This document shows, in pieces, positions 43,394 through 55,257 of a DNA stretch of 64,000 nucleotides. Numbering within the stretch: position 1 is the first letter of the stretch; every line of letters starts with the position of its first letter. The notes under the pieces are model-generated. The model did not search any database, had not been told where the DNA came from, and was given only the letters and a program-made list of their open reading frames with translations. The stretch lies in NCBI RefSeq assembly GCF_921293095.1, contig NC_060252.1, positions 38,192,881 through 38,256,880 on the forward strand, read 5' to 3'. This DNA comes from Ischnura elegans (Eukaryota; Arthropoda; Insecta; Odonata; Coenagrionidae). Made by a program: the position numbers and the translations under genes.

Positions 43394-43664
43394 CAGTGGC
43401 GTAACTAGGAATATGCTTTGGGGGGACCTGGGGGGGAACCTAGGGGGGGTCCGTGAAAATTTTTGAAAAATGCCTCATCTCAATGAATCAAATGACTTAC
43501 TGCCATGATATTTATAAATTGTATTCATCTTTAATCAAATGCAGTTATGACATGTCAAAACTGGTCAATAGTTAAAAAAATATTTTTATTTCTCTGATCC
43601 TCTGGGGGGGGGGTCTAACCCCTCATCTCCCCCCCCCCTCCCCCCCCCCATAGTTACGCCACTG
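43394..43664. mobile_element. hAT-type MITE, copy 3, host of the Transib insertion
   Basis: CAGTGGCGTAACTA at the left end and TAGTTACGCCACTG at the right end are perfect 14-bp inverted repeats. The 8-bp TSD CCTTGAAA follows hAT rules. The interior has the G- and C-homopolymer runs common to the family. The last five bases (CACTG) are also the Transib target site. Confidence 0.9.
43660..43664. repeat. 5-bp Transib TSD, left copy (CACTG)
   Basis: These are also the terminal bases of the hAT-type MITE. Confidence 0.9.
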
Positions 43665-46372
43665 CACAGTGGTCCCAATCGCTAATCTAGCGGGACAAAA
43701 GTCAATTTTGCAACTTTTAAAAATAAAGTCGCCGTAGGTGTCGCGATATCCGCAATTAAATGCTTCATCATGATTGGTAACTTTTACAACGTTTATATAA
43801 GTTATAACAATGTTATGCAGCTGCAAAGTCACGCATTGAGATTGCCTACCATCCGCCTACACCCAGACGGTGGCTGACTCGCTAGCATTAACACGTACCT
43901 GCTAGATAGCAATAACGCAAGGAACGACAATTTCTAACGGGATCTTATAGCCATCGGTATATAGCATTATTTAGAGTGATTTTTCTTCAAATATAATTGC
44001 TTTAAAATACTAGATTTCAAATGGCAATCTCTCAGTCTTTAAAACCTCGTTTTTTATCGACTTCAATTGTTTAAATTGACTTATAAAAAATATATGTCGA
44101 GGTAGGATTGCGAAACCTTCAAAGGCATGTGGAAACGTCCTTATAGTTATAGATACTTTAATCACATTTTGCGCCTACTTGCGCTTTGTGACAATAATGC
44201 CCTTTTTGTTCCATGAAGTTAACAAACGAGAACCGTTGAGACGCGGGACTGGGGGCATTTCCTCGGACGACGCCTGGAATATCGGGATAAATTACGCTAT
44301 TATAGAGAAGAAATATTTGTAATTTTAACTATTGCAGTTTTGTACTGTATAAATTTTTATTAATATTTATGGTATAGTTATTACATGGCTTACAATTGTT
44401 TACATTTTTATATCGATAGGGAAAATCATGTCGCATTCAGAGCGATTCAAGGTACCGGCGGTAAATCACATGGAATTGTCATAATTGCTGAGGGAAAACA
44501 GACTATAGATGATTTATTAAATGCGTAGAACATAAATTAGGATTTGAAAGTCGTAATGAAGATACCTCAAAGGACATCAGGAAAATTGTGATGCTATTTT
44601 AAAGTAATTTTGATAAAAAGTAAAAACAGTGCTCCAGAAAATACGACAGATTTTGGTATATGTGAACAGTCTCTTTTGAAGGATATATCGAAAATAGAAC
44701 CTTGTTTTGCAAGCCAGATTTCATTGCCAAGCTCTGGGAAAAAATATGCGGCTGCAATTATAAAAGACATAACTGAAAACATACCAAAGAGAGCTACCAA
44801 CTATAGGAAGGCTTAATTGTCTTCACCTTTGATTCAAATACCATATTCATCATCAGAAGCTTTGTCCTTTTCCAGGGAAAAAACCTGCCAAGCAACAGTG
44901 CGTAAACATCAGAAGAGAGGCCAACCAGAGACGGTGCGATATTTATCTCTCATACAAGATAAATTTGAACTCAAAGTTGTCTTGCTATCCCCCATCACAA
45001 GAACTGACCATTACTGATACTTCCGCCGAGGTCAAATTACTGGCTCTCGTGAATAACACTATTTTGGCTCAGAGAGATGTTGTCGCCGCTTTCCTTCGGT
45101 CTGGTAATGAATTCAAACTAACGATGATATTTAAATGGGGTTAAAATGGGAGTGACGGGCACAAGCAATATAAGCAAAGATTTGTATTTCGGAAGGAATT
45201 ACGTCCAGTGGACGATTCCTATATGTTTTCCATTTCTATGTCAGCTAAAATCAAATGATAAAAACAACATCTTATTGCAGAATACTAGGCCATCTTCGAT
45301 CAGGTATTGTAGACCCATTAAATTATTTCTGGAAGATCAAAGTTAGGAGATAACTGTGAAAGGAGTGCAAAAGATAGAGGCGCAGATCTCTCTACTGATG
45401 CCCTTGGTCATCGAAATAAACGGGAAGAAATTGTACATAGTATCAGAATTTTGACATTAAAAGAATCCTGAAATTTCATCAGGCATTAATGGAGTAGGGG
45501 TGGAATTATTTCAGTGGTTTGGAGCAATTCATAGCGCACTTTCCTGTGGTTTCTCCATAATTACAAGTGTATTTGAGAAGTATGCTCAAAAAACAGAAAA
45601 AATATACATGCGTCATACTCATGGTATTATATGCCTTTCACGGTACATGAAATATAATTCATGAGACAAAAGTGATTGATTACCCCCATTGCATTGCATT
45701 AGTTCACATTGGAATGCTTTCCGAAGAGGCCCAAGAAGCAAGCATATTCGTAAATTCAAAGAAAATCACGCGCAAAAATAATCAAGAAAGGACACAATTA
45801 GAGATGTTTTTAACCTACTATTAGTCACATCTGATCCTTATGTTTCCAATATTAGTTCGCTGCACCCAAGGCATTGTTATTCCCTCTCGATGGATGTCAG
45901 ACAGCTTCTCAGGGAACCAATGTTACCTGTTCCTAATGAAATGAGTAATGTTGAAGAGATGGAGGACGTGGAGTCGGTAAATTTCGGAGATGAAGGTAGT
46001 TGGGAGAGTAATAATGATGAAGGTGACTAATATTCCGCAGTTCACATCCGGTGAAAAACGATTTTATGTGTATCTCCAGTGTTTAGGAGTATATTTTTAA
46101 AGTAATCAGTTCATTAAATTAAGAATAGCGCATTACTATAGATTTTTAAAATGATTTTCTGCATATTTTTCTAAGTGTTGAGTAAAACGAAATTTTTTTA
46201 TAAATAAAATTTTAATTTTTTCCATAAAAACCACCTTGAAAAGACCTATGATAGTGTTATTTTGTGTTTTTTGTCTATAATTAGGCAATTCTAAATGTTT
46301 TCACGACAAAAGCTCTAAGTTTTTTGGGAAAAATAATTTTGTCCCGCTAGATTCGCAATTGGGACCACTGTG
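43665..46372 (+). mobile_element. Transib-superfamily DNA transposon with 23-RSS-like ends
   Basis: A 2,708-bp element. The left end reads CACAGTG (43665-43671), a 23-bp spacer, then ACAAAAGTC (43695-43703). The right end, inverted, reads CACAGTG (46366-46372), a 23-bp spacer and ACAAAATTA (46334-46342). The two spacers match at 21 of 23 positions. The 5-bp TSD CACTG lies at 43660-43664 and 46373-46377. Transib elements are known for 5-bp TSDs, for TIRs resembling V(D)J recombination signal sequences, and for a transposase related to the RAG1 core. The interior carries such a transposase, decayed. Outside the TIRs the left 700 bp is non-coding. Confidence 0.93.
44600..46030 (+). pseudogene. 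Transib transposase (RAG1-core-related), decayed
   Basis: Readable blocks, in family order and spread over three frames: GKKYAAAIIKDITENIPKRA (44.75 kb); YSSSEALSF; then a long frame from about 44850 with VNIRREANQRRCDIYLSYKI, LNSKLSCYPPS, TDTSAEVKLLALVNNTI, FLRSGNEFKLTMIFKWG; GHKQYKQRF; NTRPSSIRYCRPIKLF (45.3 kb); a QISLLMPLVIEINGKKLYI block; GMLSEEAQEA (about 45720); and DTIRDVFNLLLVTSDPYVSN, ending in TAA at 46028-46030. The WGxDGS motif, which holds the first catalytic aspartate in this family, reads W-G-stop-N-G (stop at 45142-45144). The DGK motif expected near 45.45 kb is lost. The glutamate-rich block that holds the third acidic residue survives. The product would be a DDE cut-and-paste recombinase; this copy is dead. 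Confidence 0.9.
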
Positions 46373-46385
46373 CACTGCCTTGAAA
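46373..46385. repeat. Right Transib TSD (CACTG) followed by right hAT TSD (CCTTGAAA)
   Basis: 46373-46377 repeats 43660-43664, and 46378-46385 repeats 43386-43393. Removing the Transib element plus one CACTG restores a MITE with perfect ends and a perfect TSD. Confidence 0.92.
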
Positions 46386-47573: not shown

Positions 47574-48189
47574 TCAGTTGGTTGTGAGGTCTAACGTGAT
47601 TGGCTCGGAGGCAGCCAATCTTATTTTCTTAAGTGCCGGTTTCCATGCATTACTCAGTGAATACCCTGTGTCACGATTGAGGGTGTTAGTTGCCAGCCGG
47701 ATCTCGATGGATTCCTTAACCAGTCTTTTCCAGAAATCAGTCTCGCGGCATAGAATTTTCACGTCATCCCACTTTACCCTATGATCGGATTCAATGGCGT
47801 GTTCTACAACCGCGGATTTTTCCGGTTGGCAGAGCCTAAGGTGTCTCTTATGTTCTTTTATCCTTGTATTGATAGTTCTCCCCGTTTCCCCCACGTAAAC
47901 CTGCCCACACTCACAAGGAATTTGGTAGACCCCTGGAGTTTCAAAACCACAAGGATCCTTCGCTTTAAGAAGTAGATCTCTTAGTTTGGAGCATGGTTGG
48001 AAAACGGTGTCAATACTTTGTTTTTTGAGGATCCTTGAAATTTTCCCGGACACCGTAGACACATAGGGAATTTTGGCAATAGCGATGGGCTTTGGTCTTT
48101 CTTCCTCCTTTAAAGAGCCTAGATTTTTAATGCTCCTTTTTAGCCCGAATAGCCTTTTTTGAACATATTCGCCGGGAAAGCATCAGATT
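47574..48189 (-). CDS. GIY-YIG endonuclease domain, partial Penelope-like ORF
   Basis: The frame is open without a stop from about 48189 to the TGA/TAA just below 47574, about 205 codons, and begins inside the element, so there is no native start. It opens with EYVQKRLFGLKRSIKNLGSL and KPIAIAKIPYV, a linker typical of the region after the reverse transcriptase thumb. It then has FQPCSKLRDLLLKAKDP, and the nuclease motif GVYQIPCECGQVYVG with ETGRTINTRIKEHKR. GVY...VYVG corresponds to GIY-YIG, and the arginine and later glutamates (KESIEIRL) to the catalytic set. The domain makes the target nick in full elements. Its intact frame suggests recent insertion or a well-preserved fragment. Confidence 0.85.
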
Positions 48190-54303: not shown

Positions 54304-54308
54304 CGGCG

Positions 54309-55252
54309 CACAGTGGGCTAGAATCGAAAAAAGCTGGCCAAAACCTCAGAAACGATTTTTTGAGCAAGGAAGTGGAGGCCATGGATCATCGACGGCTCTT
54401 GCCTAGAAATAGATTTTGTTCGTTACTAAAAGAGTCCGTTTCCCTACTTTAAGCACACGATTTAAGTCCATTCTCCGTAGTAGTATACGGAATGCACTCA
54501 AAGAAAGAAACCATTCAGTGCACCTCTTGTAGTGCCAGGCGATTGCATTATAAGAGTCATTCGTAGCAATATTTATTAATTTTACTTTTTGGTGATTATT
54601 TTCTATCACTATTACATCTTTTATCCACATATAAAAGTGAAAAAGACCATATTGCATCCACACGCTTACCGCGTCGCCGTACTCTCCGCCGCCGCCGCCG
54701 GCTAGAACCGGAGTCGACCGCACGCCCGAAAAAACGAATCAAAATTCGGGGTTGCAAGTTGGTGCGAGGTTACTTTAGATCCACAATTTAAAAGCTTCAT
54801 AGAACGACGTGGTATCAGTCTCTCGGCGGAAGTTTGTGGCAATATCTACTTTTTCTTAACGTTTATGTAAACAAATGGGCTGAAAACAGGTTCCGCCATT
54901 TTGTTATATATTTATGGTTTTTAATTAAACAAAATCTTTAAAAACCCTTCAAATGGAAGAAAAAGAAGTGATAATTAAGATGGTATGACATTTTTGACGA
55001 TACAACTATTCATGAAACCACTGCACGAGAATAAATTTGGCAATTTTCATAAAAAATCGAGGGTGGTCGTTTTTCGCTAAATTTGTTCAACTTTGACCTA
55101 ACATATCCTGTTAACGTGGAAACACAGAAAATAAATAATCTGGAAAATTATGCACAATTTATTTGAGAATATGTATACTAAGTTTCAACTTCCTAGCTGA
55201 AAAAATCGTTTTTGGGGTTTTGGCCAGCTTCTTTCGATTCTAGCCCACTGTG
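54309..55252. mobile_element. Non-autonomous Transib-type element with CACAGTG ends
   Basis: A 944-bp element with ~57-bp TIRs. Both ends read CACAGTGGGCTAGAATCGAA, then (A/G)AAGCTGGCCAAAACC, with about four differences overall. The TSD CGGCG stands at 54304-54308 and 55253-55257; a GC-rich 5-bp target of this kind is typical of Transib. A nonamer-like GCCAAAACC (7 of 9 to ACAAAAACC) follows the heptamer after 21 bp. The interior is AT-rich with one GC patch at 54.66-54.73 kb. The 106-codon minus frame (54403-54723) shows no transposase motif. Confidence 0.85.
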
Positions 55253-55257
55253 CGGCG

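Follow-up and report, generated by a model that had tools for sequence, protein, structure and literature searches.

A Transib element and its decayed interior

The window (the whole stretch of 64,000 nucleotides that was analysed) lies on chromosome 7 (contig 7) of Ischnura elegans ioIscEleg1.1 and holds a non-autonomous Transib element of 2,708 bp on the forward strand (43665..46372), delimited by its ends, its target-site duplication (TSD) and comparison with its family. The left end consists of the heptamer CACAGTG (43665..43671), a spacer of 23 bp (43672..43694) and, at the nonamer position, ACAAAAGTC (43695..43703; 7/9 to ACAAAAACC), all on the forward strand. The right end, on the reverse strand, has the same heptamer (46366..46372), a spacer of 23 bp (46343..46365) and the nonamer-position sequence ACAAAATTA (46334..46342; 6/9 to ACAAAAACC). 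Nonamer positions were scored here and below against the RSS consensus CACAGTG / ACAAAAACC as printed in an excerpt of PMC8289069. The direct repeat CACTG flanks the element as its left (43660..43664) and right (46373..46377) TSD. The two ends are 94% identical over 36 bp and make up one inverted repeat, so that they do not represent two independent coincidences; with 23 bp on both sides, the 12/23 asymmetry is absent. An earlier note on this DNA had proposed these boundaries, an exact CACAGTG and exactly 23 bp of spacer at both ends, nonamer scores of 7/9 and 6/9, and a 5-bp TSD, and each of these was reproduced from the sequence.

Between the ends lies a decayed Transib transposase coding region (44568..45958, forward strand; located by tblastn with the genome's own transposases), which is spread over several frames and interrupted by frameshifts and stops, and which is the only thing recognised inside the element. 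Its N-terminal part occupies about 44568-44870. The genome's own transposases match the interior in colinear order, shifting from frame to frame, with E values down to 2e-27. In a search of PDB with two fragments of the interior, the one from 44833-45141 matched HzTransib (6pqn) at E 1.2e-5 and the C-terminal one had no match; Pfam RAG1 matched none of five fragments of the element. The decayed Transib transposase that the earlier note had seen is thus borne out by the tblastn and PDB matches, and the interior belongs to Transib, not to another superfamily.

The catalytic triad of HzTransib is D126, D225 and E436 (PMC6941560, in part), residues that fall on KWGFDG, MIDGK and SEEASEAR of chain 6pqn with a common offset of 17. 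By alignment, the site of the first Asp in the window copy reads KWG*NG (45133..45150, forward strand), that is, a stop followed by Asn; the D225 site is gone, and the E436 site is kept. The MIDGK segment is lost in a gap of 134-147 codons (about 45439..45470, forward strand), whose junction differs with the transposase used: 134 residues are skipped with L081 and L083, 143 with L080, 145 with L082, and 147 with L079 and L085. This loss around the second catalytic Asp had escaped the earlier note. Because the DDE triad is not intact, the window copy is non-autonomous, and we regard it with high confidence as an internally deleted Transib of Ischnura elegans that would be moved by a transposase encoded elsewhere in the genome.

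Two further features of the window were noted. A second Transib-type element (54304-55257; 944 bp at 54309-55252) has CACAGTG at both ends, the TSD CGGCG, inverted arms (73 nt, 90% identical with the TSDs counted in) and a spacer to CAAAACC of about 22-23 bp. On the reverse strand, 47577-48182 contains a 202-aa open frame that carries a GIY-YIG-like sequence and by eye resembles a Penelope-type retroelement.

Termini and transposases of other Transib families

Long stop-to-stop transposase frames occur in the same genome, of 550 (L079), 585 (L080), 706 (L081) and 714 aa (L082), and further places exist; the relatives that had been anticipated are present in this form. In L079 the 550-aa core frame is open and the N-terminal domain lies in another frame. 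A TIR finder and a repeat search did not show the ends of these other families, which were found by comparing near-identical copies and by a heptamer scan. The ends of L079/L085 and of L081/L083 are each supported by a similarity boundary between two copies, and L084 and L080 are each known from one end, with the TSD unread. The L079 family has a spacer of 23 bp at both ends (the right end was read, the left end comes from its place and a pattern match alone) and is 3,841 bp (C5) or 3,843 bp (C4) long, depending on the place.

We counted ends of other types genome-wide as end-like places, meaning motif matches with a heptamer followed by G and with GGACAAAA at a spacer of 16-28 bp; ends without GGACAAAA are therefore unseen in these counts. 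The pattern CACAGTGGV (V-type) gave 2,127 places (control 4), CACAGTGGT[AGT] (T-type) gave 107 (control 1), CACAATGG gave 101 (control 12) and CACTATGG (CACTATG) gave 14, which with a control of 6 is near background. V-type spacers were 22 bp long at 1,843 places and 23 bp at 227 (together 2,070/2,127); among the 100 of 107 T-type places listed, 79 had 23 bp, 15 had 22 bp and 6 had other lengths. CACAGTG is therefore the usual heptamer in Ischnura elegans among end-like places with GGACAAAA, and a spacer of exactly 23 bp is no general feature, being a minority length in the larger, V-type set. The earlier note had held the terminus to be more RSS-like than a common CACTATGG-type end, a claim that the 2,127 places with CACAGTG against 14 with CACTATG do not support. 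What stands of its reading is a Transib with 23-RSS-like ends and a pattern repeated across copies; what falls is that the likeness is unusual. In some Transibs the terminal heptamers and nonamers equal those of the RSS, at various spacers (PMC6941560, in part). The RSS likeness is real and a property of the Transib superfamily that has already been published, which makes the window element itself ordinary.

The nonamer position was compared among 23-spaced ends of three families (the left window end, the right end of L079, and L084). Heptamers agree at 7/7 positions, spacers are identical at 7-14/23 and nonamer positions at 8-9/9; the right window end agrees with the L079 right end and L084 at 6-7/9 of the nonamer position. 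Scores to the RSS nonamer are 5/9 in L080 and 4/9 in L083, 7/9 in L081b at a spacer of 22, and 7/9 in the second window element at a spacer of 21. The nonamer motif is thus real and not universal, and two families in which it is weak have long open frames.

These figures bear on a deflationary explanation, namely that the nonamer-like block is simply the inner part of the 36-bp inverted repeat, A-rich by descent or chance, and that the heptamer alone matters. It agrees with Hztransib ends, which hardly if at all resemble the RSS nonamer (excerpt of PMC8289069), with the weak scores of L080 and L083, families with long open frames, at their one readable end, and with L082, whose examined stretch yielded no CACAGTG end. 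Against it, the nonamer position of the three families is conserved while their spacers have diverged, and V-type spacers, free to vary over 16-28 bp, concentrate at exactly 22 or 23 bp. We consider this explanation unlikely, although it keeps more weight than any other that we weighed against our reading of the window element as an ordinary Transib.

In L079-L082 the part equivalent to the HzTransib core is preceded by an N-terminal domain that carries a GR(P) motif; the stretch also matches in L078 and L084, and it is decayed in the window element. A conserved TPTRA block likewise lies ahead of the core in L079-L082. Homology between the N-terminal domain and the RAG1 nonamer-binding domain (NBD) was undetected among PDB sequences, searches of which with this domain matched the HzTransib core and, weakly, one ribosomal protein; the likeness to the RAG1 NBD comes from visual recognition of the GRP motif and from PMC9435367, an excerpt of which describes a GRP-containing NBD for both subgroups of Transib. 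A bolder interpretation is that the damselfly Transib signal is bipartite, with a fixed two-turn spacing and an N-terminal, NBD-like reader, so that nonamers would be recognised without RAG2, and that these ends could be cut as a 23-RSS by vertebrate RAG when paired with a 12-RSS. We offer this as speculation, with a rather small chance of being correct.

It is highly improbable that the window element belongs instead to the RAG-like (RAGL) transposons, as a relative of ProtoRAG that carries RAG1L and RAG2L. The L079 product scores 34.2 bits, above the Pfam RAG1 cut-off of 25, and L080 matches amphioxus RAG1L at 5.4e-7; but L080 is far nearer to HzTransib (E 1.8e-125), L081 (22 bits) and L083 (18.9 bits) stay under the cut-off, L080 and L082 have no Pfam RAG1 match, and the window element has symmetric ends and, as far as recognised, a transposase remnant only. 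Genome-wide searches for the RAG1 family and for the RAG2 family gave no match, and their controls were likewise empty.

Copies of the window element across the genome

A 35-base end pattern with at most three mismatches occurs at 139 + 138 = 277 places in the 1.72-Gb genome, against none for the reversed control, a number well beyond what chance would give. For the family sample we started from the 40 of 308 DNA-search candidates that were scored, from which 39 regions were taken; 11 further distinct loci and the window brought the sample to 51 sequences, with 19 of 30 loci in the second listing and 8 loci in the first dropped as the window or duplicates. L045 and L047, both counted among the 51, are probably halves of one copy.

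The tabulation across copies that had been proposed upholds the pattern of the window element: CACAGTG is present at 89/92 family ends, and ACAAAA stands at exactly spacer 23 in 88/92. Identical 5-bp flanks border 34 of the 42 two-ended copies, with a preference for C-R-N-Y-G (C first in 27/34, G last in 28/34). Eight two-ended copies depart from this: L009 shows a 6-bp repeat, CAGCGC, in place of the TSD; in L024 and L031 an additional C separates the left duplication from CACAGTG; the flanks of L027 differ by one mismatch; the left end of L069 is damaged; and the flanks of L012 and L015 do not match. The eighth, L017 (G000 C8:1978759-1981463), lies between the two arms of a 59-bp inverted repeat and has no direct 5-bp duplication.

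In length, 38 of the 42 two-ended copies measure 2.55-2.8 kb, too short for the missing codons. Each of the 38 is interrupted by a stop within the six codons of the KWG stretch, and in 37 the stop falls on one and the same codon; the first Asp is kept, next to the stop, in 12 and replaced in 26, so that loss of this Asp is not family-wide. The remaining four (L036, L038, L039 and L043) owe their greater length to inserts; this extra sequence resembles other inserted elements and matches transposases at E 0.92 at best. At one shared position, L038 and L039 carry a nested insert, about 650 bp long and bounded by inverted ends of its own; the two copies differ in TSD (CACTA and CACCG), as though the Transib had taken the insert along. 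L043 contains a related one a few bases from that position.

By divergence the copies form clusters of 14, 6, 3, 3, 2 and 2 (mean 1.4, 0.4, 2.4, 0.2, 0.8 and 0.5%, respectively), with eight left ungrouped at the 3% clustering threshold, a distribution that points to amplification in several recent bursts. Some of the low divergence may be due to segmental duplication, because flanking sequence is shared by L073 with L076 and by L045/L047 with L074. That segmental duplication instead of transposition spread the copies in general is scarcely credible, since a comparison of flanks (up to 200 bp per side) found sharing in only these two sets, and the exact 5-bp duplications are of many different sequences.

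We observe directly the 36-bp inverted ends, the GC-rich 5-bp duplications, the Transib coding remnant and the recent amplification of copies that share an interior of deletion size and a stop. Judged from these copies, the family multiplied after the loss of its own enzyme and must have moved in trans; because no family copy among those examined carries a complete transposase, we infer the mobilising enzyme. A Transib transposase from elsewhere in the genome would recognise CACAGTG, as extrapolated from HzTransib and RAG, and would read, at least partly, the ACAAAA block, which lies some two helical turns from the heptamer. The cut would adjoin the heptamer and leave a hairpin on the flanking DNA, where HzTransib cleavage leaves one (PMC6941560, in part), and insertion of the element would then follow with a stagger of 5 bp. 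The shared ancestry of Transib ends and the RSS would account for the RSS likeness of the element's ends.

Comparison with known systems

The Transib superfamily gave rise to the antibody-gene recombinase, and Transib transposases are related to the RAG1 core. Kapitonov and Jurka reportedly gave, in 2005, a Transib consensus of CACAATG / 23-bp / AAAAAAATC.

Against this background, the window element is confirmed as one copy of an ordinary, non-autonomous Transib family, in a damselfly rich in Transibs. Across the three sets (277 + 2,127 + 107), about 2,500 end-like places with the canonical RSS heptamer lie in a single genome, their spacers being 22 or 23 bp long; these ends, together with several transposases in long open frames, are material with which the role of the nonamer and of spacer length in Transib can be tested. 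Hztransib, which shows little nonamer similarity in the excerpt of PMC8289069, does not offer the same test of nonamer and spacer. The strongest new point, of modest novelty, is a nonamer position conserved over diverged spacers with open transposase frames alongside. We found no description of these Transib families in the open-access library searched, which omits most subscription papers, and the word Transib is absent from the main text of a paper on Ischnura genomes (PMC10781644). Elsewhere, autonomous Transibs typically number one or a few copies (PMC4411706, in part), and Transib MITEs amount to 0.19 Mb over 98 insect genomes (PMC5199201, in part).

The window element resembles Transib in its GC-rich 5-bp TSD, its inverted ends starting with CAC, its RSS-like heptamer and its transposase remnant homologous to HzTransib. 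Hztransib is 3,518 bp long with the 5-bp TSD GCTCG, according to a partial account, and Transib spacers are given, in an excerpt of PMC8355894, as symmetric at 20-22 bp, plus some 12/23 (plus or minus 1) pairs; the window element differs in being non-autonomous and in having CACAGTG with a symmetric 23-bp spacer. With ProtoRAG and RAGL elements it shares ends starting with CAC, a 5-bp TSD and a distant kinship of transposases. Amphioxus ProtoRAG, as partially described, has the heptamer CACTATG, spacers of 27 and 31 bp and a RAG2L gene, whereas CACTATG, 27-/31-bp spacers and RAG2L are not seen in the window element. The likeness to the vertebrate 23-RSS extends to an exact CACAGTG and an exact 23-bp spacer, with 7/9 and 6/9 at the nonamer position. 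Unlike a vertebrate 23-RSS, the ends of the window element are both of the 23 type, with no 12/23 pair, and their spacer lies within the 36-bp inverted repeat.
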